Virus record (IMG/VR): IMGVR_UViG_3300010883_015241
Location: 1-52,220 of that record
Origin: a virus
Reading direction: 5' to 3' (one strand)
DNA length: 52,220 bases
Position numbers and translations under genes: made by a program
The notes under the pieces: model-generated
Seen by the model: only the letters and a program-made list of their open reading frames with translations
Databases searched by the model: none
Told to the model about the DNA's origin: nothing
Shown: positions 24,126 through 49,527 of the stretch, in pieces
How positions within the stretch are numbered: position 1 is the first letter of the stretch
Layout: the number at the start of each line of letters is the position of its first letter

Positions 24126-25544
24126 TTGGAAAAACTAGCGATAATTGTACCTTATCGAGATCGCTATGACCAACTACTAACCTTCAAGGAGAAAATTGTA
24201 AAGTACTTAGATAATAGGGACTTTAACTATTGTATAATCATAGTAGAACAAGATAACGCATCAGCCTTTAATAGAGGTATGTTATTGAACATCGGTTTTA
24301 AGGAAGCTCTTAAGCAACGATGTGATTATGTTGTGTTCCACGATGTAGACATGACACCTATAGATGTAGACTACTCTAATTCAGAGTTTCCTATACACTT
24401 AGCTAGTCATGATCTCCCATTTGATGAGTATTTCGGTGGAATAACACTATTCCCTGTTAAAGACTTTGAAAAGATTAACGGATTTTCTAATATATATTGG
24501 GGTTGGGGATTTGAAGATGACGATCTACGGTACAGGTGTATTAAAAACAACATAAGGTTAGATAGACAGCATAGAGAATTAGCTGATTCATCTAAATCTG
24601 TGTTAAAGTTTAATGGAACAAATGCTTTTGTAAAGCTACGTAACACTCTTGACATAAGTCAAGACTTTTCTTTATACTTATCGTTCACTCCTGAGAAAAT
24701 GAAGCTAGATCCTGACAAAGAATCAGATAGATTTACATTATTTAACATACCAGGGTATGATTTCTCTATTTTATACAACTCTTTTAAGAGAATAGTACTA
24801 CAAGCCTTTGATAGACGTGGAAATTTCCATCAAATAGCTTCAAAACCATTTTCTCCTAAGGCTAGTAACGTATTAGTTACATATAATGCTACAGAAAGAC
24901 AGTTTATTATGTATATGTTCGGAAAGAAGATAGGAATCATTAATTTAAAAGCGAAAAGCACTGTACAAAACGCATTACATGACTATAATCAAGAACCTTA
25001 CCAGTATTTAGGAGCATCCAACGGAAAGGATGAACATTTTAGAGGCACTATTGATACTTTCGTTTCTTGGGACAGTTGTCTTAACAAAAACGAAGCAAAA
25101 GAAGTGTGTAATAACAGATATTACGGATTAACCCAGGATTTTGGGGAATATCAAGGTTCTTCATCAATAAATACCTACTACGATACAAGATTTATTAAGA
25201 ATTACAGTTTAATGGACTTAACTGAAGGAGGAAACACTGGAATCATCAAGAATTGTGAAATAATGAAGTATGATGCTAAGGATTACGTAGTAGATTTCAT
25301 ACCTCATAGAAGAAACAGTAAGGTAAGGGTGGAAGAACACGATACCAACGGGTATAATAATGGTCAGTGGAAGGATAAACTTACTAGATATAATCAACTA
25401 AGGTTTGAAAACGAAGTTCAAGAGGGATCAGTAGATTTTACTACAGATGGCCTCTCTAATTGTAAGTTTACGTTACACGGTAGAGTAAAAGACAATTTCA
25501 AAGGTAGTAGACGTAGTATAATACACTTAAACGTAGGTATATAA
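24126..25544 (+). CDS. GT7-like galactosyltransferase fused to a LamG-like domain
   Basis: 472 residues from a TTG start (24126-24128), chosen because it directly follows the preceding stop and keeps the N-terminal strand LAIIVPYRDR, the entry of the beta-1,4-galactosyltransferase (GT7) fold. Further GT7 marks: FNRG (48-51), HDVDM with D73 and D75 as metal ligands, EYFGG (101-105), and NIYWGWGFEDDDL (122-134). Residues ~159-340 resemble a concanavalin-like/LamG jelly-roll (KFNGTNAFVKL, FSLYLSFTP, HFRGTIDTFVSWD). The tail (~350-472) is unassigned. It should add Gal or a related sugar, with the lectin-like part holding a glycan or protein acceptor. A paralogue lies two genes downstream. Confidence 0.82.
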   Translation: MEKLAIIVPYRDRYDQLLTFKEKIVKYLDNRDFNYCIIIVEQDNASAFNRGMLLNIGFKEALKQRCDYVVFHDVDMTPIDVDYSNSEFPIHLASHDLPFDEYFGGITLFPVKDFEKINGFSNIYWGWGFEDDDLRYRCIKNNIRLDRQHRELADSSKSVLKFNGTNAFVKLRNTLDISQDFSLYLSFTPEKMKLDPDKESDRFTLFNIPGYDFSILYNSFKRIVLQAFDRRGNFHQIASKPFSPKASNVLVTYNATERQFIMYMFGKKIGIINLKAKSTVQNALHDYNQEPYQYLGASNGKDEHFRGTIDTFVSWDSCLNKNEAKEVCNNRYYGLTQDFGEYQGSSSINTYYDTRFIKNYSLMDLTEGGNTGIIKNCEIMKYDAKDYVVDFIPHRRNSKVRVEEHDTNGYNNGQWKDKLTRYNQLRFENEVQEGSVDFTTDGLSNCKFTLHGRVKDNFKGSRRSIIHLNVGI

Positions 25545-25942
25545 TGAAAAAAGGAGTTATTTGTGGTAATTTTGACGTAATTCACCCAGGATACATAAAA
25601 ATGTTCAAAGAATGTGCAAAAAACTGTGATTGCTTAATAGTTCTACTACATTCAGACCCTTCTATTGAAAGACCCACTAAATTAAAACCTATTCTAACAG
25701 TAGAAGAGAGAAAAGAGATGTTATTAGAGTTAAGATCAATTTGTGACGTAATATCTTATACATTTGAAGCGACTTTATATGATTTACTTAAAATAGGTGA
25801 GTTTAACGTAAGATTCTTAGGAGATGATTATATAAATAAGCCTTTTACAGGAGATGACTTAAAAATACCCATACATTACCTAGATAGGTCACATGGTTGG
25901 AGTACAACAAAGTTTAAACAGTTAATATCAAAGACAATATGA
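25544..25942 (+). CDS. Cytidylyltransferase (TagD/RfaE-like) with altered HxGH motif
   Basis: 132 residues, the size of glycerol-3-phosphate cytidylyltransferase. GNFDVIHPGY (8-17) matches the nucleotidyltransferase signature, but the last His of HxGH is replaced by Tyr (H14-P-G-Y17). The C-terminal WSTTKFKQL (118-126) matches the family's RxxxxSTT motif, with the Arg at the start of the loop. It would form a CDP- or ADP-activated polyol or sugar. The Tyr may lower activity or alter the substrate. It overlaps both GT7-like neighbours. Confidence 0.75.
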   Translation: MKKGVICGNFDVIHPGYIKMFKECAKNCDCLIVLLHSDPSIERPTKLKPILTVEERKEMLLELRSICDVISYTFEATLYDLLKIGEFNVRFLGDDYINKPFTGDDLKIPIHYLDRSHGWSTTKFKQLISKTI

Positions 25943-27294
25943 AACTAGGAGTATGTGTTCCTTATAGAAACCGTGAAAAACACTTACATGAGTTCATACC
26001 CAAGGTGGGGAAGTTCTTAAAAGAGCAGAATATTGACTTTTGCATGTATTTTGGACACCAATGTGATGATAAGTTGTTTAATAGGGGTGCAATGAAGAAT
26101 ATAGCAGCAAAACATGCATTCGAAGACGGATGTGACTACATAGTGTGGCATGATATTGATATGATACCTGAAAATAACACCTGTGATTACTCATACCCTC
26201 AAGATAACCCACGACATATAGCAATAAGTATATCTCAAAGTGAGTATCAACTGAAATACCAAGAGTATTTTGGAGGAGCCGTTCTTTTTACTAAAGAACA
26301 AGCAGAAAAGACTAATGGGTACTCTAATAACTACTGGGACTGGGGTATGGAAGATGATGATCTCTTTTGGAGATGCCATCTAGAAGGGTATACCAATATA
26401 AGAGAGAGTAATTTACCGAAATATGACAAGTATTTTAGGTTTAATGGTGAAAATTCTATGATGGAAATACCATATAAGGTTCTAACACCTAATTTCTTTA
26501 AAAAAGACTTCAAAATATCAGTTTTAGTTAAAGCTGAACACCAACAACATAAGGCTCCCATACACCTAATAGGTAATCCTAATGCAGAATTCGTAGAATT
26601 TCCTATATTAAGGATACCCGGGTATGATTTCGGCATAGCCTATAACAATTCACGTGCATTAACACTTCAATTTTGGAATACTTTCAAACAACATAACTAT
26701 ATGTGGTTAAAAAGGTATGCTAATCAATGGTCTTGGGTAACAGCAGAGTTTAAAATTAAAGATAAAGCATGTCACTTCTTTCTTAATGGGGTAGAAGCAG
26801 ATGCAAGAGCAGGACATGGCACACAATCTCCGTTAATATGGAAAGGACAGTTGTATAATTATAAGAAAGAGAATATTTATATAGGGCATACCCCTTCTTT
26901 GAGTAAAGATAACCCAGGAAGTTACTTTAAGGGTGATATAGCTGAAGTAATAATAGAAAGTAGAGGTAAAGAGTTATATAGGCTGACAAAAAACAGTTCA
27001 TATAAGTCTAAAAACGTAAAGTTAATAGAAAAAAATGATATGATTATCAATCATTCTATACTTCCTCATAGAGTTGATGGTAGATTTAGATGTTTACCTC
27101 ATCAAACACAAGGAATGGTAGATGGAAAATGGAGTAGAGGCGAAACAACAGCAAAAAACGAAAGAAAATACGTCTTAAAGATGCAACAAGGTAAGCATCC
27201 ATATAAGAAAGATGGTTTAAATAGTATTAAATATACATTTATAGAAGAAAAGAAACTAGCTCCCTGGGCTAAATTAATTAATGTAAAGTTATAA
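25939..27294 (+). CDS. Second GT7-like galactosyltransferase with LamG-like domain
   Basis: 451 residues, paralogue of the protein at 24126. It has LGVCVPYRNR at the N-terminus, FNRG (47-50), HDIDM with D72 and D74, YFGGAVLF (110-117) and YWDWGMEDDDLFWRC (132-146). A LamG-like jelly-roll starts near residue 165 (YFRFNGENSMMEI) and runs to about 325 (YFKGDIAEVIIES). The first Trp/Gly pattern (WDWGMEDDD against WGWGFEDDD) shows divergence from its sister, possibly for another donor or acceptor. The final ~120 residues are basic and unassigned. Confidence 0.82.
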   Translation: MKLGVCVPYRNREKHLHEFIPKVGKFLKEQNIDFCMYFGHQCDDKLFNRGAMKNIAAKHAFEDGCDYIVWHDIDMIPENNTCDYSYPQDNPRHIAISISQSEYQLKYQEYFGGAVLFTKEQAEKTNGYSNNYWDWGMEDDDLFWRCHLEGYTNIRESNLPKYDKYFRFNGENSMMEIPYKVLTPNFFKKDFKISVLVKAEHQQHKAPIHLIGNPNAEFVEFPILRIPGYDFGIAYNNSRALTLQFWNTFKQHNYMWLKRYANQWSWVTAEFKIKDKACHFFLNGVEADARAGHGTQSPLIWKGQLYNYKKENIYIGHTPSLSKDNPGSYFKGDIAEVIIESRGKELYRLTKNSSYKSKNVKLIEKNDMIINHSILPHRVDGRFRCLPHQTQGMVDGKWSRGETTAKNERKYVLKMQQGKHPYKKDGLNSIKYTFIEEKKLAPWAKLINVKL

Positions 27295-32364: not shown

Positions 32365-32779
32365 TTTTTTTAACAATAGGTATACTCTTATACTACAGGA
32401 TGATAGGTATAAATTAATAAAAGAACTAAATTTACCTACTAATGTAGATGTTTTTACAGGAAGCCTAGAAAGAGTATCTCTTGATATAAAGAAGCATGAA
32501 CTGGATTTAGATACATTCTATAACGGCCACTTAATAATAAACACACCAGAAACATTAACTGAAGTAAACTTTGAAGACCTATTTAATAAGAACATAAGAG
32601 AAAAGACACTGTACGTTAAAAACGTAGTTCATAGCGGTAATCCAACAGAATGCACAATTGACGATAATATACTACTTTGTAATGGATTTATACTTCCTTT
32701 TGTTGCGAATCATAAAAGAACACAAAATACACTGTACGCAACAATGTGGTCAAATAGAATAAAAATAAAAGTATTATGA
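32354..32779 (+). CDS. Small protein of unknown function in glycan cluster
   Basis: 141 residues, no family recognised. Mixed alpha/beta with a charged N-terminus and strands LIINTPETL and IDDNILLCNGFILPFV. It overlaps the putative glycosyltransferase gene upstream by 11 bases and the next gene by four (ATGA), so it is certainly co-translated. It could be a subunit of a flanking transferase. Confidence 0.6.
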   Translation: MNNNFFNNRYTLILQDDRYKLIKELNLPTNVDVFTGSLERVSLDIKKHELDLDTFYNGHLIINTPETLTEVNFEDLFNKNIREKTLYVKNVVHSGNPTECTIDDNILLCNGFILPFVANHKRTQNTLYATMWSNRIKIKVL

Positions 32780-33555
32780 CGAAAATAGCAGTTCTAATAA
32801 GCGGCCAATTAAGAAATTGGAAATTAGCATTGGATAGTCAAAAATGGTTTTGGAGCACTTCCGGATCTGAAGTTGATTATTTTGTACATACATGGGACTA
32901 TAGTATGGACCGCCCAGCTTGCTCAAAAGAGTATAACTTTCGCCCTGTAAGACATGATGAATTTAAAGAGTTTTGTGACGCTTACAAGCCCATAGACTCA
33001 ATACTTGATGATAAAAAGCAACAGTATTTTTATGATAACGATCACTGGAGTTCTCTGTTTTATAGTTTAACTCGAACAATATTAATGAAAAGAAAGCATG
33101 AGTTAGAAAGTAATTTTGAATACGATGTAGTTTTTAAAACAAGACCTGATGTATGTTACAACCCAGAAGAGCCCCTGAAATGGGAACCAATGTTTGATAA
33201 TGTATTTTATACAACCCATGGGGGAACTATGCCACATGAGTTTAATGCATTTAATTTAAATGATTGCGTCTTTGGAGCAAATTCATATACAATGGATATG
33301 TTATCAAACCTCTACTTTTATAGGCAGTACAAGATTAATAAAAACGTAAAAAGAGATTATAACCCAAACTTTAACGCAGTGGGACCAGGTGTGTTGATGC
33401 ACGAATATATGCAAGAGTTTGGTATTACACCCCTACTAGATCTACCTTTTATAGAAACACTTGTTAAAGAAGGATGTCCTAAAGATTTACATTTATTAAA
33501 TGTTGAGCATTGGAAAGTAATGGAAAAATATTTTAGAGATTGGTACTTAAAGTAA
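32776..33555 (+). CDS. Glycosyltransferase-like protein (GQLR/HTWD family) 1
   Basis: 259 residues. Opens IAVLISGQLRNW, then YFVHTWDYSMD and YDVVFKTRPDV. This set of motifs (Gly-Gln-x-Arg, TWD, RPD) is found in a phage and bacterial family annotated as putative glycosyltransferases; the R-PD segment could replace DxD. A second member lies at 40875. The C-terminal part has NAVGPGVLMHEYM, which might contact the acceptor. Function is inferred. Confidence 0.6.
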   Translation: MTKIAVLISGQLRNWKLALDSQKWFWSTSGSEVDYFVHTWDYSMDRPACSKEYNFRPVRHDEFKEFCDAYKPIDSILDDKKQQYFYDNDHWSSLFYSLTRTILMKRKHELESNFEYDVVFKTRPDVCYNPEEPLKWEPMFDNVFYTTHGGTMPHEFNAFNLNDCVFGANSYTMDMLSNLYFYRQYKINKNVKRDYNPNFNAVGPGVLMHEYMQEFGITPLLDLPFIETLVKEGCPKDLHLLNVEHWKVMEKYFRDWYLK

Positions 33556-36056: not shown

Positions 36057-36904
36057 TGGAAATACTAACAGGTGAAAAGTTTCAAGATATATGCGATGCA
36101 GGTATAAGTAAGCTGCAACATAAACCATTTGAAAGTGCTACTAAGCATAATTCAATTGATGTTGATGAATTTAATTTCTTTGAGTACGATAATCCTGAAT
36201 TAATATATGTTAATAGCTCTCTAATAAATAAAGACAAAACATCTTTAGTATCTTCTAACCTTTTCCGTAAATTAGAAGCTCTTACAAACCCATTCAGAGT
36301 AGTATTGCATAACTCAGATCAAAACTTTGACGATATACACCGCCACTACTTTGATATCCCTAATTTAAAAAAGATATACACTCAGAATATTAACACTGTA
36401 CATAAAGACCTTGTACCTATTCCAATTGGTTTAGCAAACAGTAACTGGCCTTGGGGTAATCTAGGCACAGTTAATAAGATTTTAGATGAGAAAGTTAAAA
36501 AAGATAAACTTTGCTACTTTTACTTTAAAATTAACGGAGGAGTAAGAGAAGAACACCGACCAGAATGTCATAAGGTGTTAATGGGAAAAGGATTTCAATT
36601 CCTTCCTCATCAAGAGTACGAAGATTACCTTAGAACTTTAAAATCACATAAGTTTTGTATTAGTCCTCAAGGTAATGGTATTGATTGCCACAGGATGTGG
36701 GAAGCTTTGTACATGAAAACTGTACCAATCTGCGAAAGAAATATATTAACAGAGTATTATTCAAAATTATTCCCCATAGTGTTAGTAGATGATTGGAATG
36801 AATTAGATATGGACTATCTTTTAAGTAGTTATTCTGACCTAAGTAACTGGGATAATTATGATCTATTAGATTTTGACAACTATATTAAACATATTAAACT
36901 ATAG
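36056..36904 (+). CDS. Exostosin-like glycosyltransferase (GT47-like)
   Basis: 282 residues. The C-terminal part has LKSHKFCISPQGNGIDCHRMWEAL followed by MKTVPICERN and FPIVLVDDWNEL. The F-x-ISPxGNG-D-xHR-WE block is characteristic of exostosin-type and related GT-B transferases, and the following P-I-x-x-x-x-x and DDW parts fit the donor pocket. Predicted to extend a glycan. The gene starts at the stop of the dehydrogenase (TAATG) and its stop touches the next GTG start. Confidence 0.78.
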   Translation: MEILTGEKFQDICDAGISKLQHKPFESATKHNSIDVDEFNFFEYDNPELIYVNSSLINKDKTSLVSSNLFRKLEALTNPFRVVLHNSDQNFDDIHRHYFDIPNLKKIYTQNINTVHKDLVPIPIGLANSNWPWGNLGTVNKILDEKVKKDKLCYFYFKINGGVREEHRPECHKVLMGKGFQFLPHQEYEDYLRTLKSHKFCISPQGNGIDCHRMWEALYMKTVPICERNILTEYYSKLFPIVLVDDWNELDMDYLLSSYSDLSNWDNYDLLDFDNYIKHIKL

Positions 36905-37530
36905 TGATAAACCACGAACATAAATTCATATTTCTACATATACCTAAGTGTGCTGGTGTATCGGTAGGTAGGACTCTTAATAAGGTAACAGGAGTTACTG
37001 ATATATATGAAGGATTCAAAATACACCACGATGAATTTGATAAAGATATGTTTAAAGAGTACTTTGTATTTACTTTTGTTAGAAATCCATTAGATAGATT
37101 ATACTCTCAGTACAAATACAGAGACTTTCTAAATACAAAACATAAATTCAGCTATGTAGTGGATAATATACAAGATTTATTCGAAAAACATTATAACTGT
37201 ACAAGAGAAGAAAGAAAAGAAGGAACTTTACAAGAAATAGCTGACTACTACGGTGAGTTTATACATTTAACGAGTCAATATGAATTTTTACAGGGAAAAT
37301 ACAGTAATAATGTTGATTATCTGCCATATATTAACTATATTGGTAAATACGAAACGTTATCTGAAGATTTCAACACTGTTTGTCAAAGAATAGGGCTAAG
37401 TGTTGTTGATCTACCGTATAGTAATATATCTTCGTTGAAAAAAAACTACAAAGAAGCCTATACTGATGAATTAGTAGATAAAGTACGAGATAAGTACGCT
37501 CAAGATATAGAATATTTTAATTATGAGTAA
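36904..37530 (+). CDS. Sulfotransferase-like protein 2 (Sulfotransfer_2 type)
   Basis: 208 residues from a GTG start at 36904, the only start that keeps the N-terminal motif. FIFLHIPKCAGVS (8-20) is the PAPS 5'-phosphosulfate loop of carbohydrate (heparan/chondroitin-type) sulfotransferases; TFVRNPLDRLYSQY (57-70) is the 3'-phosphate motif with R60 and S68. This is a stronger match than the first sulfotransferase-like gene. Predicted to sulfate sugar hydroxyls. It overlaps the next gene by eight bases. Confidence 0.87.
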   Translation: MINHEHKFIFLHIPKCAGVSVGRTLNKVTGVTDIYEGFKIHHDEFDKDMFKEYFVFTFVRNPLDRLYSQYKYRDFLNTKHKFSYVVDNIQDLFEKHYNCTREERKEGTLQEIADYYGEFIHLTSQYEFLQGKYSNNVDYLPYINYIGKYETLSEDFNTVCQRIGLSVVDLPYSNISSLKKNYKEAYTDELVDKVRDKYAQDIEYFNYE

Positions 37531-38383
37531 AATTTATAGAAAACAAGGAGTGAGATATTGGTTTGACACATTTAGTCATTTAAATTCTTTTGATATAATC
37601 CCATATCAAGAAGTAATTGATTTGTATTTAAAAAATCATGAACTATTAGGTAATACATTAGAAAAAGAAGGAGGAGAAAACGAAAGACCTCTTAATTCTG
37701 ATGAAGAATCAATAGACTTCAATGCTTTTTGGCTAGGACACAGTCCATCCTATTATGATGTAGATCCTTTTAAACAAAAAACACTAAAAGCTAAAGCAGA
37801 TATTATATCTATGGATATGACAGGAGTAAATAAAACATGGGATCATTGGATGTACCTTGTTTTACCTGGAGAATTATTCGTTCACCTAATGACATCAGTT
37901 CATTCTAACCCAGATGTAAGAAAATTTAAAGAGTTTATTAAAGAATTAGATAGTGGGACTAATAAAAAGATAACTAACCAAAGACTTGAGATACTCACTA
38001 CTAAGTATAACACTAAATACCCAGAACTACATAAATTTAAAGACTTTTTTGAAGAACATGAAATACTACAATGGAGCGCAGACTTAAACCCTACACAGTT
38101 TATAACATTAAAAGAAAAAGGATTAATTTATCCAATTTGTTACGTACAGACAGAAAGATTGTTAAATAGAGGAACACATCGAGCCCTTCTATTAGCAATG
38201 TCCGGTAGTGATGTTCCTATTTTTATTCAATACCCTAAACTAGGAAAAGAACCTGTAGGAGAAAAACTAGTACTTTATTTACAATCTCATTTTGAGAACC
38301 AGCACTTAAGGATGGAAGTGGATATAGAAAGTAAAGAATTAACTTTTTTTAGAGATATGGAACTAATAGGAAAATATAACTAA
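37523..38383 (+). CDS. RGTHR-motif protein 1, possible ParB/sulfiredoxin-like fold
   Basis: 286 residues, not assigned to a family. Residues 203-236 read as strand, turn with RGTHR (216-220), helix (ALLLAMSG), strand (VPIFIQY). That resembles the G-x-HR-x-x-A nucleotide-binding motif and following helix and strand of the ParB/sulfiredoxin fold, which can transfer phosphate. The C-terminal LRMEVDIESKEL is shared with a paralogue at 39041 that also has RGTHR. The first 190 residues are helical. Between them lies the CMP-sugar synthetase-like gene. Resemblance is by motif only. Confidence 0.6.
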   Translation: MSKIYRKQGVRYWFDTFSHLNSFDIIPYQEVIDLYLKNHELLGNTLEKEGGENERPLNSDEESIDFNAFWLGHSPSYYDVDPFKQKTLKAKADIISMDMTGVNKTWDHWMYLVLPGELFVHLMTSVHSNPDVRKFKEFIKELDSGTNKKITNQRLEILTTKYNTKYPELHKFKDFFEEHEILQWSADLNPTQFITLKEKGLIYPICYVQTERLLNRGTHRALLLAMSGSDVPIFIQYPKLGKEPVGEKLVLYLQSHFENQHLRMEVDIESKELTFFRDMELIGKYN

Positions 38384-38385
38384 AG

Positions 38386-39051
38386 ATGAAAAGCATAGCA
38401 GTTATAATACATGCAAGAATGGAAAGTACTAGATGTCCTCAAAAACATCTACGTGATTTAGGAGATGGGAACACTCTTTTAGATATTGCTTTAAAGAAAG
38501 TACAGAAGTTAAAGAATGTACAAGAAAAGTACTTAGCAGCTCATGAACAAGAAATAAAAGATAGGGTAGTCGATGGAATAGAAATACTACACAGAGAATA
38601 CAAATCAGTTGCACCAGGTAATTGTGCTCATAATATAATGTATGATCATTTAAATAAGGTAAAAGCTGATTATATTATAAACTATAATCCATGTCAACCT
38701 TTTCTTAATGTGGATAAACTACAAGAGGTAATTGATTGGTTTAATAAAACACCTTTGGAAAGTGCTATAACAGTAAAACATACTAAAAACTTTTTCTGGA
38801 ATAAAGCTGCAACACCTATTAATTTTAAACCTAATGACAGGTTATCAACCACTTCAGGACCCGGTTTATGGGAAGCTACTCATTCGTTGGTTATGTACGA
38901 AAAAGCTTATATGTTAGAACATTGGGAATTATTCCCTAATACGTATGGAAATCCACACCCATATTTAATTGAATGGCCTGAAGATGAGTTAGTAGATGTA
39001 GATACAGAATTAGATTTTAAAATAGTAAAAGCGATGTATAATGGATCATAA
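38386..39051 (+). CDS. CMP-sugar cytidylyltransferase-like (NeuA/SpsF type)
   Basis: 221 residues. IHARMESTRCPQKHL (8-22) matches the CTP-binding signature (xRxxSxRxPxK) of NeuA, KdsB and SpsF enzymes; YNPCQPF and the DVDTELDFKIV near the C-terminus match later parts of the family. It would activate a nonulosonate or similar sugar acid with CTP. A NeuB-like synthase is encoded further on (48694), which suggests a shared pathway. It overlaps the next gene by 11 bases. Confidence 0.75.
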   Translation: MKSIAVIIHARMESTRCPQKHLRDLGDGNTLLDIALKKVQKLKNVQEKYLAAHEQEIKDRVVDGIEILHREYKSVAPGNCAHNIMYDHLNKVKADYIINYNPCQPFLNVDKLQEVIDWFNKTPLESAITVKHTKNFFWNKAATPINFKPNDRLSTTSGPGLWEATHSLVMYEKAYMLEHWELFPNTYGNPHPYLIEWPEDELVDVDTELDFKIVKAMYNGS

Positions 39052-39847
39052 ACCAAAATACTACACAACAGCCTTTAGAGATCTAAAAGTATTAGATACG
39101 TTTAGCTTTCCGGAATGGGAAGCATTAAATCTCTTAAATCAAAACCTAACTCTTGAAGACGGAACTTGGGAAACTAATAATAATATAAATAAATTTAAAT
39201 TTGAAAAAATCGATTTAGGGCATAAATGGCAATATAGTAAAGCAAGTTTTTTTAAAAAAGGACCATGGGGGACCATAAACGCGAAAACAGATATTACTAG
39301 TAAAACCATTCTTAAAGAATCGTATAGTACTGATAGAATGATGTTCTGCACAATACCTAAAGAGATCATAAACACTTACCAAACAGCATGCCTACATAAT
39401 AAAGACCTATCAGTAATAAGAGAGTATGTTAAAACGGTAGAAAGCACAGTAGGTTGGAATGGTGATTGGCAATCTATAAAAGAACAGTACAATCAAACAA
39501 ACTCAGGTGTAGATTGGCATAATGATTTCAGTATTGAATGGTATACCAGTATTAAACAAGATGGTCTGATATCTTTACCGTCATACATCGAAAATAGTGA
39601 TGGAAATAAATTTTTAGCAAGAGGAACTCATAGAAGCTACTTAAGCGCCTTAGCAGGTTACGATTTTAACTTCTTTACAAGGTACACACCAGGAGATAGC
39701 ACAGTTAAGTATATAACCTGTAATTCAAAATCCGGCAATAAATATTTTTCTGGAGAAGATTTAAGAATGGAAGTTAATATGGGTACTAGAGAGATAGAAT
39801 ATTACCTCCATCAGAGTAATAAAAGTATAGGTAAATTAAAAATATAA
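39041..39847 (+). CDS. RGTHR-motif protein 2, paralogue
   Basis: 268 residues, related to the protein at 37523. RGTHR lies at 194-198, followed by SYLSALAGYDFNFF (helix then strand), and LRMEVNMGTREIEYYL near the end matches the first copy. The N-terminal part differs. The same possible ParB/sulfiredoxin-like reading applies. That the two copies flank the CMP-sugar cytidylyltransferase-like gene suggests a common step with it, which is inference. Confidence 0.6.
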   Translation: MDHKPKYYTTAFRDLKVLDTFSFPEWEALNLLNQNLTLEDGTWETNNNINKFKFEKIDLGHKWQYSKASFFKKGPWGTINAKTDITSKTILKESYSTDRMMFCTIPKEIINTYQTACLHNKDLSVIREYVKTVESTVGWNGDWQSIKEQYNQTNSGVDWHNDFSIEWYTSIKQDGLISLPSYIENSDGNKFLARGTHRSYLSALAGYDFNFFTRYTPGDSTVKYITCNSKSGNKYFSGEDLRMEVNMGTREIEYYLHQSNKSIGKLKI

Positions 39848-39849
39848 AT

Positions 39850-40173
39850 ATGAAATTTGTTATAGATATAGACAATACTATTTGCAGAGAAGAAGGACCG
39901 GTAATAACAAGAGAACCTTTTAAGGACAGAATAGAACAGATTAATAAACTTTATGATGAAGGACATGAAATAGTATTTAATACGGCTAGAGGTCTAAAGA
40001 GTGGAAGAGGGGAAGAGTATTATAGACCTATCACAGAATCACAATTAGAACTATGGGGGTGTAAATACCATGAACTCTGTTTTAAACAACATGATACTAC
40101 ATTTTACATAGACGATAAAAATAGATACCCAAATGAATTTTTTAAAGATAATTTAAATGAAACAATTTTTTAA
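39850..40173 (+). CDS. HAD-family phosphatase-like protein (capsule type)
   Basis: 107 residues. FVIDIDNTIC (3-12) is HAD motif I with D6 and D8; FNTARG is motif II (Thr); FYIDDKNRYPNEFF near the end is motif IV. Small proteins of this type occur with sugar nucleotidyltransferases in capsule loci and are thought to dephosphorylate sugar phosphates. It overlaps the nucleotidyltransferase gene by 17 bases, so the two are translationally coupled. A fused HAD-nucleotidyltransferase is encoded at the end of the window. Confidence 0.78.
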   Translation: MKFVIDIDNTICREEGPVITREPFKDRIEQINKLYDEGHEIVFNTARGLKSGRGEEYYRPITESQLELWGCKYHELCFKQHDTTFYIDDKNRYPNEFFKDNLNETIF

Positions 40174-40888
40174 TATAGTACTGCCAATGGCAGGTAAAGG
40201 ATCTCGATTCCAAGAACAGGGTTATGTTAACTCAAAACCATTTATAGATGTAAACGGTAAACCAATGGTTCGAAGAGTTATCGAAAACTTAAATATAGAT
40301 TTCGCAAAGAATTTTAAGTTTATAATCATAACTCAAAAAGAAGATTACGAGAATTACGATTATAGTTTCTTTAGAGAAGTTATAGGACATGATAATATTG
40401 AAACAATAGTTCTAGACGGTACAACAGAAGGTGCAGCTTGCACACTACTAACTGCAAAAGAGCATATAGATAATAATACCCCCCTACTTACCTTTAACTC
40501 AGATCAATTAATAGACTATGATGTTAATGCAACCTTCAGTCAACTCAGCCTTAATGACGGAGGAATGCCCTGTTTTTACGGAGAAGGAACGGATTGGAGT
40601 TATGCTAAAACCAACAAAGAGGGGTATGTAGTAGAAGTAGCCGAAAAGAAACAGATATCAAATGATGCCACAGCAGGTTATTATTATTGGAATCGAGGAT
40701 CAGATTTTGTAAAGTATGCTGAACAGATGATTGAAGCAAACGATAGAGTGAATAACGAATTCTACGTAGCACCAGTTTATAATTATGCAATCAAAGATAA
40801 GAAACGTATAGTTATAACAAAGGTAGATAAAGTTTATGAATTAGGAACACCGGAATATCTTGAGAGTTATTTAAATGGAGAACAGTAA
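40157..40888 (+). CDS. Sugar-phosphate nucleotidyltransferase-like
   Basis: 243 residues. LPMAGKGSRFQEQGYVNSKP (9-28) is the NTP-binding signature (GxGxRxxxxxxxxPK) of NTP_transferase enzymes; TFNSDQLID carries the metal-binding acid, and ELGTPEYLESYL is the C-terminal family signature. Activates a sugar phosphate, or phosphocholine or phosphonate in LicC/PntC relatives, with NTP. The core sequence is closely similar to the C-terminal half of the fused gene at 51186. It overlaps its neighbours on both sides. Confidence 0.87.
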   Translation: MKQFFNIVLPMAGKGSRFQEQGYVNSKPFIDVNGKPMVRRVIENLNIDFAKNFKFIIITQKEDYENYDYSFFREVIGHDNIETIVLDGTTEGAACTLLTAKEHIDNNTPLLTFNSDQLIDYDVNATFSQLSLNDGGMPCFYGEGTDWSYAKTNKEGYVVEVAEKKQISNDATAGYYYWNRGSDFVKYAEQMIEANDRVNNEFYVAPVYNYAIKDKKRIVITKVDKVYELGTPEYLESYLNGEQ

Positions 40889-41528
40889 AAATAAAATAGC
40901 AGTTTGTATTTTTGGTCAGACAAGAACTTATAAAGTTTTTACTAACTTGTATAAGAACTTAAATGACCAGTCTGACTTTAGTTTTGATTTCTTCTTAACC
41001 ACGTGGGATGATTTTAAACCAAACAACAAATTAGATTTTTTTACAGAAACTGAATATATAAAAACAGATATCTTTGAGTTTAAAAACCATACTGAAAGAG
41101 CAGCATACTGTATAGCAAGAGTAAATCAACTAAAATTAAAACATGAATTACAGGGAAACTTTGTTTATGATTATGTAGTACTAGCAAGAGGAGAGATAGA
41201 AATTAATAAAGAAGATTTGTTAAGTACGTTAAGAGATAAATGTAATAATTCATCGCAGTATGAGATAAATATTCTAAGTGATATAGGAGTAGATAAAACA
41301 GGAGCTTGGTACCAACCATCGGATTTCTTTTCATTAGGAACCTCTTTAGCTTATGATAGATACGCAAACTCTTGGAAAAGTTACTATAGACTAGAGGATG
41401 GTATAGATGATAAACATGGAGGTCATAATTTTCATGCATACGCAATTAAGCATAATAATTTAGAAAGTAAAAAGGTAAAAATTAAACATAGGTTTGAATT
41501 TAATCAACTAAAGAAAAGAGAAGTATGA
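40875..41528 (+). CDS. Glycosyltransferase-like protein (GQxR/TTWD family) 2
   Basis: 217 residues. IAVCIFGQTRTYK, FFLTTWDDF and YVVLARGEIEI match the motif order of the protein at 32776 (GQLR, HTWD, KTRPDV), so the two are paralogues. The acidic residue after the Arg differs (RGE instead of RPD). Likely a glycosyltransferase of unknown donor. It overlaps the nucleotidyltransferase gene by 14 bases and the next gene by four. Confidence 0.58.
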   Translation: MENSKNKIAVCIFGQTRTYKVFTNLYKNLNDQSDFSFDFFLTTWDDFKPNNKLDFFTETEYIKTDIFEFKNHTERAAYCIARVNQLKLKHELQGNFVYDYVVLARGEIEINKEDLLSTLRDKCNNSSQYEINILSDIGVDKTGAWYQPSDFFSLGTSLAYDRYANSWKSYYRLEDGIDDKHGGHNFHAYAIKHNNLESKKVKIKHRFEFNQLKKREV

Positions 41529-44153: not shown

Positions 44154-45112
44154 TAAAAAGGAAGTTTAACGCTGAAGTATCTTTTGATAAGGTAAGATTA
44201 CATTCTTCGGAAAAGGTATCTTCTTGGGGCTCTCTATTTGAGAGATTTAAACAAAGTATTAGAGAAGAAGATATTCGATACTACCCAAATGTTAAATCTA
44301 GTCGAGCATATTCCCTACTACAGGATTATTATAAACATGAAGAACTACTTATAGGCTTTGGTAGCGATAGGTGTTTAAAATATTTCTTTGAAATAAACCA
44401 AGACTATTCTAAAGTAATCACTACTAATCCAAACTTTCCAATGTATAACATATACTCAGATATGTTCAATATGGAACAAGAAGTGGTTGAATATGATAAT
44501 TTAATTTTCCCAATAGAAGCATTACTAGATAAAATAACTCTTGACAGTATAGTAGTTATTTCAAATCCATCTTCTCCAATAGGAGACTTAATTAATACAG
44601 TTGACATATTAAGAATATTAGACAAAGGAGTGCCTGTATTGATTGATGAAGCTTATATTGAATTCTCTTCAGCAGTATCGTCTATACCTTTAATAAAGAC
44701 AAATACAAATTTATTTGTTACCCGGACATTTTCAAAAGCACTAGGAAGCGCAGGAATAAGATTCGGTACTATACTTAGTCAAAGAGAAAACATACAAAAA
44801 CTGTCTCAATATAGGGATATGTACGAAACATCAGGTATAACCCTAAAATGGGTGGAAGTACTATTGTCCAATGATTACTACATAGAAAGTTATATTAAGA
44901 AAATAAAAGAAACAAAGCTGCTCTTAGAAGATAACCTAAGAGAAAACAACATCGAGTTTATAACATCAGAAAGCAACTGGATTCACATCAGAGGACAGTT
45001 TAATATACCGAATACTTTAGAAATTAAATCGAATTGTACAGTACCCGGTAGAGGAAGTGATTGGATAAGACTGTGTATAGCAGAAGATATTAACAAATAC
45101 GACTGGATATAA
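44150..45112 (+). CDS. PLP-dependent aminotransferase (HisC/CobD-like)
   Basis: 320 residues, class I/II fold. ISNPSSPIG (N139 in the usual NPxxPxG), LIDEAYIEF (D166, Y169) and TRTFSKALGSAGIRFG (PLP lysine K196, R204) match HisC-type aminotransferases and threonine-phosphate decarboxylases. It could make an amino sugar precursor or another amine for the glycan. The C-terminal PGRGSDWIRLCIA segment, which binds the substrate carboxylate in relatives, is present. It ends at the next gene's start (TAATG). Confidence 0.88.
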   Translation: MIKRKFNAEVSFDKVRLHSSEKVSSWGSLFERFKQSIREEDIRYYPNVKSSRAYSLLQDYYKHEELLIGFGSDRCLKYFFEINQDYSKVITTNPNFPMYNIYSDMFNMEQEVVEYDNLIFPIEALLDKITLDSIVVISNPSSPIGDLINTVDILRILDKGVPVLIDEAYIEFSSAVSSIPLIKTNTNLFVTRTFSKALGSAGIRFGTILSQRENIQKLSQYRDMYETSGITLKWVEVLLSNDYYIESYIKKIKETKLLLEDNLRENNIEFITSESNWIHIRGQFNIPNTLEIKSNCTVPGRGSDWIRLCIAEDINKYDWI

Positions 45113-46464
45113 TGCAAAGAGAATTCAAACAAGGCTCAGAAAAATTAGTACAAGGTGTATTAGATGAAGTTGATGTATATCACTTTACTAACTACCCCTG
45201 GCAAGCATCCTTACAGGATATAAAGTACTACTCATTTGAAAAACTTAGAAGAAGTTTTTTAGTAGGGAAGTATGGTTTACTTGCCGACCTACCTACATAC
45301 CGAACACCTCTTGGGAGAGTATTTGAATATACCCTATACGGAGACTATCTTCAAAGCCTTAGGCAAAAACTTAATATAATAAACGAAATGGCTGCCTGCG
45401 ATTTTAAAAGCAACCTACCGGTACATATAAGTGTATCTCCTAAAGGAGAAAAAAAAGAGATAGATTTGTATAATCTAAATAGCCATGAAAACTTTTCGTT
45501 TATTGTACACCCCGGGCAAACCAGATGTCAAGCAAGTGTATTTACTAAAACACCTTTAAGAAACGTTCTTTTTTATGTTAACAAAAAGCATAGAGAACAG
45601 TGTCAATTTACATTAATTGAAGGCTGCAGTAAAATAGAAACCCCTAATGAACTCCTCAGTATCTTTAATCCTAGTGAAAAAACAGATAATAAATTATTTT
45701 ATGATTTTTACATACCAGGACAAGTAACTGGTGTAAAGAGAAAGGAACATCTAGGCATTCCTATACTAAAGTTAAATCAGATTAAGGATGAAAATAGTAA
45801 CAAATCGTATCACTGTTCTAAGTTTTATCTTGAAACTAGTTTTACGTCGATGAGAAACTTTTCAGAGATTTTTTGGAAAATGCCATTTAATATATACTCT
45901 ACTAATTTAAATGAAACAGAGTCCATCCAAAATGAAAATAGAAATAAGTTACTTCAAGACGGTAGTATATGTTTAGATGAATTTCAATATGACGAAAATA
46001 AACCTCATGAAAATGGCGAAAGCTTAATAGCAGGTTTAACTAAACCTAATAACCCAATATTTAACGTACCGGAAGATGAACTAAACGACTTTAAAGGCTT
46101 AGCAGAGTTTATGGAGACTTATAACAAAAAAAGAAGTACCGATTGGGGAGCATATGAAGAAAAACAACCTCTCCAGAACCTACATACCTTCATGAAACCG
46201 GTGTATATACCTATTGAAGAAAAAACTACTTCTAAGAAGATTGTAAAGTTAAATGAATACAAAGGTTTTTGTATCTATATTGATTCTAATAATATAAAAA
46301 CATTCAAAAGAGATTTATATGAATTATTATTTTATATAAACAGTGATGTAGCCATGTCTTATAATAAAAATAAGACTGTAGTTATATTTAATTGCGAACA
46401 CGAATTTTGGAAAACAGGCAAGAACTATAGTAGTTGGAATATAGAAGACACATTTTATAACTAG
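45112..46464 (+). CDS. Unknown protein with HPGQTR motif, possible ParB/sulfiredoxin-like element
   Basis: 450 residues, unrecognised. After LPVHISVSP (102-110) comes FSFIVHPGQTRCQASVF with HPGQTR at 133-138, then a helix and a strand NVLFYVNK. This resembles the strand, H-x-R-type turn, helix and strand seen in the RGTHR proteins and ParB-like folds. The remaining residues (150-450) have no visible motif. It lies between an aminotransferase and a hydroxyacid dehydrogenase gene, so a metabolic role is possible. Weak inference. Confidence 0.65.
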   Translation: MQREFKQGSEKLVQGVLDEVDVYHFTNYPWQASLQDIKYYSFEKLRRSFLVGKYGLLADLPTYRTPLGRVFEYTLYGDYLQSLRQKLNIINEMAACDFKSNLPVHISVSPKGEKKEIDLYNLNSHENFSFIVHPGQTRCQASVFTKTPLRNVLFYVNKKHREQCQFTLIEGCSKIETPNELLSIFNPSEKTDNKLFYDFYIPGQVTGVKRKEHLGIPILKLNQIKDENSNKSYHCSKFYLETSFTSMRNFSEIFWKMPFNIYSTNLNETESIQNENRNKLLQDGSICLDEFQYDENKPHENGESLIAGLTKPNNPIFNVPEDELNDFKGLAEFMETYNKKRSTDWGAYEEKQPLQNLHTFMKPVYIPIEEKTTSKKIVKLNEYKGFCIYIDSNNIKTFKRDLYELLFYINSDVAMSYNKNKTVVIFNCEHEFWKTGKNYSSWNIEDTFYN

Positions 46465-48693: not shown

Positions 48694-49527
48694 ATGAAAA
48701 TCATATCGGAATTATGTCAAAATCACAATGGAGACAGGTCTATTCTTGAATCTATGATAGAACAAGCTGCACCTGATAGCGATATACTAAAAATACAGTC
48801 TATAAAGGCAGAGACGTTTACTAATAGGGAGGAGTACGAATCGTTTAGACCTTATAAAGAGGAGTACGAAAGACTGAAGAGTATAGAACTAAGTTTTGAA
48901 GATGAAAAGTTTTTTATAGAGAAATGCAAAGAGTATGGAGTTGAAACTATGACAACCGTATTCAGTACTTCTCATGCAGAATACTTTAATTCATTAGGGT
49001 ATGATCATTTAAAACTATCAGGATATTCAATACCGGAATTTGACTACGGTAATAAGTTAGTTGATTTTAATTTTAAGAAATTTTACTTTTCTACTTCTAG
49101 TTTAACTTATGAAGAAATAAGTAAAACAGTTAATAACCTTAAAAACCTAAATATTAATTTCTGCATGATGCACTGTATATGTGTATATCCAACAATCTTA
49201 GAAAGAGCTATTTTACAGAATATAAACTTCTATCAAAACCATTTTGCATTAGATTCTATAGGGTATAGCGATCATTCAAATCCACATGAAGATAACCTAC
49301 TGACAACTAAACTTGCAATATTTGAAGGTATAGATGTATTAGAAAGACACTTCACTATACTAGAAGTAGACAAAACCAGAGACGGAAAAGTATCACTAAC
49401 CCCAACTTTACTAAAAGAAGTAAGAAGATTTAGTAAATTAACAGAGTTACAGCAATATAAAGAGTTAAACCAATTTGACGAACAACAAGAATTTAACCAT
49501 AAGTATTACAGAGGACGATTTAAATGA
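48694..49527 (+). CDS. NeuB-family nonulosonate synthase-like, without SAF domain
   Basis: 277 residues; NeuB-type enzymes have about 345. Marks: ISELCQNHNGD (4-14), ILKIQSIKAETF (31-42), FSTSHAEYF, HCICVYPT (160-167), SIGYSDHSNPHED and LERHFT (216-221). These are the TIM-barrel residues that bind phosphoenolpyruvate, metal and the sugar. The C-terminal antifreeze-like (SAF) domain, which in NeuB closes over the partner's active site, is absent. If active it would condense PEP with an amino sugar to a sialic- or legionaminic-type acid, to be activated by the CMP-transferase at 38386. Confidence 0.85.
   Translation: MKIISELCQNHNGDRSILESMIEQAAPDSDILKIQSIKAETFTNREEYESFRPYKEEYERLKSIELSFEDEKFFIEKCKEYGVETMTTVFSTSHAEYFNSLGYDHLKLSGYSIPEFDYGNKLVDFNFKKFYFSTSSLTYEEISKTVNNLKNLNINFCMMHCICVYPTILERAILQNINFYQNHFALDSIGYSDHSNPHEDNLLTTKLAIFEGIDVLERHFTILEVDKTRDGKVSLTPTLLKEVRRFSKLTELQQYKELNQFDEQQEFNHKYYRGRFK

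Follow-up and report, generated by a model that had tools for sequence, protein, structure and literature searches.

The window, a 52,220-base stretch of DNA from the IMG/VR virus record IMGVR_UViG_3300010883_015241, encodes a T4-like head module whose major capsid protein is 68.7% identical to its counterpart in the Flavobacterium phage vB_FspM_immuto, from which a marine Bacteroidetes host may reasonably be inferred. After the structural genes of this T4-like phage, sugar-related genes occupy about 30 kb of one strand (21498-52220) and comprise glycosyltransferase-like, NeuB, CMP-sugar synthetase, sulfotransferase, radical SAM, aminotransferase and several SGNH-like hydrolase genes. No sugar cluster of that kind was present in the stretch examined around the capsid genes of cultured immuto. 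The genes considered here are the following:

36904..37530, + strand: sulfotransferase gene (PF03567, Pfam E value of 9.6e-15), its last 8 bp shared with the beginning of the A paralogue
37523..38383, + strand: A paralogue, P0001, 286 amino acids, a candidate divergent ParB/Srx-like protein according to BLASTP, the AF2 model and conservation
38386..39051, + strand: CTP_transf_3 (CMP-sugar synthetase-like) gene between the paralogues (PF02348, E value of 4.8e-12)
39041..39847, + strand: B paralogue, P0002, 268 amino acids, with an 11-bp overlap with the synthetase gene
39850..40173, + strand: small HAD-like gene of the conserved neighbourhood (weak match, below the cut-off)
40157..40888, + strand: sugar nucleotidyltransferase gene of the conserved neighbourhood (PF00483)
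45112..46464, + strand: gene for a third protein, a conserved cluster member, with HPGQTR at 45508-45525
48694..49527, + strand: NeuB-family synthase gene (PF03102, Pfam E value of 2.1e-33), which supports a nonulosonate-type CMP-sugar pathway

The first-pass annotation had described two paralogues separated by a CMP-transferase gene, and our analysis confirmed both the coordinates and the kinship: P0001 and P0002 are 24% identical over 235 amino acids (BLASTP E value of 1e-19), and tblastn with one of them recovers the other (E value of 2.7e-14). A family of 32 distinct members, found in 17 viral records (the window included) and one metagenome-assembled genome (MAG) contig, was assembled by scanning viral and genome contigs and then searching the DNA so recovered with profiles. 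A tree of the 31 full-length members resolves four clades: A has 14 members and includes P0001, B has 8 and includes P0002, C has 7 and D has 2. Since clades A and B are separate in this tree, the A/B split is older than the divergence of these phages. The RGTHR proteins are a previously undescribed family. Searches of all members against Pfam, NCBIfam and PHROGs gave scattered weak matches only, none of them consistent, a profile search of PDB sequences with the family returned nothing credible and no ParB chain among its matches, seven different members had no sequence match among 50,697 records of cultured phages, and P0001 had none among 72,556 plasmids. A function in partition was considered and rejected, since none of the 32 members has a Pfam match to a helix-turn-helix (HTH) domain; C-terminal dimerisation domains were likewise absent from their Pfam matches, and the nameable neighbours of the family genes are sugar genes, with no ParA partner seen among them. 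The MAG contig (L006, NZCQ01000021.1), binned as Pacearchaeota, carries family members together with neighbours that match those of the phage clusters, and it is therefore probably a misbinned phage contig rather than of cellular origin.

The genomic surroundings of the family are recurrent. In 13 of 15 contigs the A paralogue lies immediately upstream of the synthetase gene, mostly with a 4-bp overlap of the kind typical of translational coupling, and in one of these 13 the two genes are separated by 550 bases. The recurrent order is A paralogue, synthetase, B paralogue, small HAD, nucleotidyltransferase, radical SAM, aminotransferase, HPGxTR protein, 2-hydroxyacid dehydrogenase and NeuB, with some genes absent or displaced in each contig. 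Furthermore, the PF03567 sulfotransferase and the A paralogue form a single in-frame fusion at L026:5056-6528, L031:340-1815 and L032:431-1906, two of these three contigs being close relatives. The coupling of the A paralogue to the synthetase, the recurrent cluster and the sulfotransferase fusion together tie the family to the making of a CMP-activated, NeuB-type sugar, and perhaps also to its sulfation. Nothing pertinent on phage nonulosonate clusters that include proteins of this kind came up in the literature searched.

Conservation was counted over the 31 full-length members, in P0001 numbering, and concerns the following features:

37844..37867, + strand: predicted beta-1 of the ParB/Srx-like core of P0001, residues 108-115, from the AF2 model (P115 conserved in 31/31)
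38090..38134, + strand: Box I or C-motif-like helix and loop of P0001, residues 190-204, PTQFITLKEKGLIYP, placed by hhalign to ParB (G200 in 31/31, P204 in 30/31)
38168..38182, + strand: RGTHR of P0001, Box II or P-motif-like, residues 216-220, at the N terminus of helix 218-226 (AF2 model and conservation)
39539..39580, + strand: Box I-like helix and loop of P0002, WYTSIKQDGLISLP; clade B taken alone gives the best match to ParB
39620..39634, + strand: RGTHR of P0002, residues 194-198 (sequence and conservation)

Asp24, Pro115, Gly200 and His219 are invariant (31/31), and Trp184 (30/31), Pro204 (30/31) and Asp187 (26/31) are close to it. Conservation of the RGTHR residues in homologues had been set beforehand as one of the points on which the proposal could fail, and they proved to be retained, with R216 in 24, G217 in 25, T or S at 218 in 26, H219 in all and R220 in 29 of the 31 members; this conservation makes RGTHR a real family signature. 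The G[TS]HR core is kept throughout clades A and B and is degraded in parts of clades C and D; the variants of RGTHR are AGTHR and GHSYHR in clade C and RSTH followed by M or I in clade D. Across the family, position 218 is T, S, Y, L or F and in no member Cys, while position 216 is R, H, A, N or T and in no member Asp. The two clade D paralogues (L016:7755-8426 and L018:9136-9852), with RSTHI or RSTHM, have lost the Arg of the P motif and are possible pseudo-sites. The C-terminal LRMEV strand, which had been pointed out as a further shared element, is indeed common to P0001 and P0002 but does not extend to the family as a signature, the homologues having, among others, LKMEI, IIMKV or LRMNV.

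An AF2 model of P0001 built from a 32-sequence alignment reached a pLDDT of 89.2 and a pTM of 0.88, as opposed to a pLDDT of 38 for a prediction from 4 sequences. Its elements follow one another as beta 108-114, helix 190-199, beta 205-207, beta 212-213, helix 218-226 and beta 231-237, with GTHR at the start of helix 218-226, so that the arrangement of strand, RGTHR and helix read from the sequence by the first-pass annotation is recovered in a confident model. Apart from an insert of about 75 amino acids between beta-1 and Box I, P0001 thus reads beta1-alpha1-beta2-beta3-[GxxR]-alpha2-beta4, which is the order seen in ParB/Srx, as judged by the succession of elements. Foldseek, which had been suggested as a check together with structure prediction, was less telling: the top match in the viral library BFVD, a protein from Erwinia phage Kwan with a ParB/Sulfiredoxin domain, has an E value of 0.11 and a probability of 0.44, and there is no significant match of the P0001 model in the PDB.

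The relationship to ParB was approached by collecting ParB_N (PF02195) sequences and comparing profile with profile (hhalign). The family matches ParB_N with a score of 29.3 (P of 8.5e-4), in a register that places its SIKxxGLixPI and GxHR on ParB boxes I and II. Among the controls, reversed profiles scored about 8.5, none of 60 column shuffles rose above 15.5 and none of 17 unrelated families taken from these phage clusters rose above 22.4. The comparison of ParB with GmrSD_N, run as a positive control, scored 26.9 (P of 0.0011); the match of the family to ParB equals that of this accepted pair. Masking RGTHR leaves a score of 25.3 (P of 0.0038), and Box I is therefore independent support, whereas masking Box I lowers the score to 13.5 with the register unchanged. 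This second motif, LKxxGLIYPI, which had escaped the first-pass annotation, corresponds to Box I of ParB, and most of the profile match is due to it. In the published definitions (PMC12704722), Box I consists of a helix and of a loop, similar to GLxxP, in contact with the base, and Box II is GxxR; residues 190-204 and GTHR 217-220 of P0001 fit these definitions. No conserved ENxxR-like motif that could stand for Box III was found downstream of beta-4 in the family. When the clades were compared with ParB separately, A scored 22.5, B 32.3 and C 22.9, all in one register, clades A and C alone being within reach of the best unrelated family (22.4). A null made by shuffling blocks of 9 columns, which is able to keep Box I whole, exceeded 29.3 in 1 of 200 permutations. 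The proposed resemblance to ParB/Srx is thus supported, as a remote link, by the conserved RGTHR, the element order and the profile match; Foldseek is suggestive but not significant, and the PF02195 model matches none of the 32 members.

Set against known proteins of this fold, the family is like the ParB N-terminal domain in the order of its elements, in the Box I helix and loop SIKxxGLIxPI and in the Box II GxxR at a helix start, but it differs in lacking a recognisable Box III and HTH, in its insert and in its location in a sugar-biosynthesis operon. With sulfiredoxin, an ATP-binding variant of the ParB fold (PMC12704722), it shares the GxHR motif, and with the kinases SerK and SbnI it would share the use of a ParB fold outside DNA partition, in metabolism (PMC5120207, PMC12704722). 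GmrSD_N (DUF262) is an accepted ParB/Srx-fold relative with DGQQR, and profile comparison places it just as far from ParB; however, it belongs to a restriction-enzyme context and has no detectable similarity to our family (score of 14.8), and it was rejected as a nearer relative on this score. A 2025 survey of the ParB-CTPase fold relied on PF02195, and its accessible text names no sugar-activating or sulfotransferase partner; the present family is beyond the reach of the model on which that survey was based (PMC12704722).

On this evidence we favour, as the probable though far from settled explanation, that P0001 and P0002 are ancient paralogues of a very divergent ParB/sulfiredoxin branch with an NTP pocket acting near CMP-sugar formation or sulfation. 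Its parts are not equally firm. What the analysis establishes is the family, its conserved residues, the order of the predicted elements, the coupling of the genes and the fusion. Remote membership in the ParB/Srx fold is likely; such a fold suggests NTP binding, which is predicted with only slight preference, while phosphoryl transfer is a putative activity that we regard as doubtful. The core would consist of beta-1 ending in the invariant Pro, the helix and loop of Box I (LKxxGLIYPI), a pair of short strands, the R-G-T-H-R loop and beta-4 (DVPIFI), with R-G-T-H-R as the Box II phosphate loop capping its helix, and these elements together would form a nucleoside-phosphate pocket. The rest of the protein is made up of the insert of about 75 amino acids, an N-terminal region with the invariant Asp24 and a C-terminal beta extension. 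The pocket is presumed to bind an NTP, and the protein would then act on or control a step adjoining CMP-sugar formation or sulfation in the NeuB-type pathway of the phage, most plausibly by NTP-dependent transfer of a phosphoryl group to a sugar intermediate or by partnering the synthetase or sulfotransferase under NTP gating. More specifically, A and B might draw on an NTP, be it CTP, ATP or a donor resembling PAPS, in order to modify a CMP-activated, sulfated sugar or to gate it, a speculative proposal that we hold to be rather improbable in this specific form.

Some of the alternatives are narrower forms of this explanation, and where they are, the confidence given to them overlaps with that given to it. 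One is that one or both paralogues are NTP-dependent small-molecule kinases, whose substrate, a sugar or hydroxy-acid intermediate, would be phosphorylated ahead of cytidylylation. The fold has a precedent in SerK, a protein formerly annotated as ParB that phosphorylates free serine (PMC5120207). The family genes are coupled to sugar-activating enzymes, and the invariant Asp24, the invariant His219 and the frequent Asp187 could serve catalysis. In SerK-type motifs, however, an Asp precedes the Gly of the P motif, and the family never has Asp at the equivalent position 216; no sequence match to SerK was found either, SerK chemistry is unlikely for the family, and a putative kinase of this general type remains a doubtful candidate. 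About as doubtful is a regulator or scaffold that itself catalyses no reaction but would sense CTP, ATP or PAPS and control the CMP-sugar synthetase or the fused sulfotransferase. ParB-fold proteins are commonly nucleotide switches and fuse to partner domains (PMC12704722), and the sulfotransferase fusion, the 4-bp overlaps with the synthetase gene and the loss of the Arg in some paralogues, as in pseudo-sites, agree with such a role, but the presence of several paralogues per phage and of a conserved additional N-terminal region suggests more than a sensor domain.

A departure from the favoured ParB/Srx assignment itself would be a new fold, with RGTHR and the GLIYP loop making up the site of another ligand, for example a sulfated or CMP-sugar acceptor. 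The failure of Foldseek to give a significant match and the single block permutation in 200 that reached the profile score are consistent with this possibility; it is nevertheless deemed unlikely, since the element order, the two boxes in the right order and register, the agreement among clades and the control scores favour ParB. Redox repair of the sulfiredoxin type, to which the similarity of GTHR to GCHR could point, is extremely improbable, because the position of the catalytic Cys is occupied by T, S, Y, L or F; with that Cys missing, known sulfiredoxin chemistry is excluded.

If the ParB/Srx reading is correct, a fold with known roles in DNA segregation, redox repair and serine phosphorylation would extend into phage glycan biosynthesis. 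Should the speculative use of an NTP by A and B hold as well, no earlier ParB/Srx branch would have been devoted to glycan activation, and in some phages this one would be physically linked to a sulfotransferase. The family would be a divergent branch that is new in itself and in its context, without introducing a new principle. The paralogue pair, the CMP-sugar synthetase and the sulfotransferase fusion would provide a test system for why phages carry large sugar-building clusters.

The protein encoded at 45112-46464 had been grouped with the paralogues on account of its HPGQTR motif. The motif is present, HPGxTR is invariant in all homologues found, and by eye its setting resembles a strand-motif-helix-strand pattern, but profile comparison detected no kinship, whether with ParB (P of 0.15 to 0.37, not significant) or with the RGTHR family (P of 0.38 to 0.57, not significant). 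The best, non-significant alignment with ParB (P of 0.15) lays HPGQTR on the ParB GERR. This 450-amino-acid protein of unknown family has no Pfam match, and its homologues, in contigs L022, L023, L024, L025, L028, L032, L037, L038 and L039, occupy the same neighbourhood in many related phages. The proteins encoded at 32776-33555 and 40875-41528 resemble each other in an N-terminal pattern (ISGQLR / IFGQTR); both are conserved in many related phage clusters, without a Pfam match and glycosyltransferase-like by appearance only. Finally, the proteins encoded at 24126-25544 and 25939-27294 combine, by their look, glycosyltransferase-like N termini with apparent lectin-type (LamG-like) beta domains.
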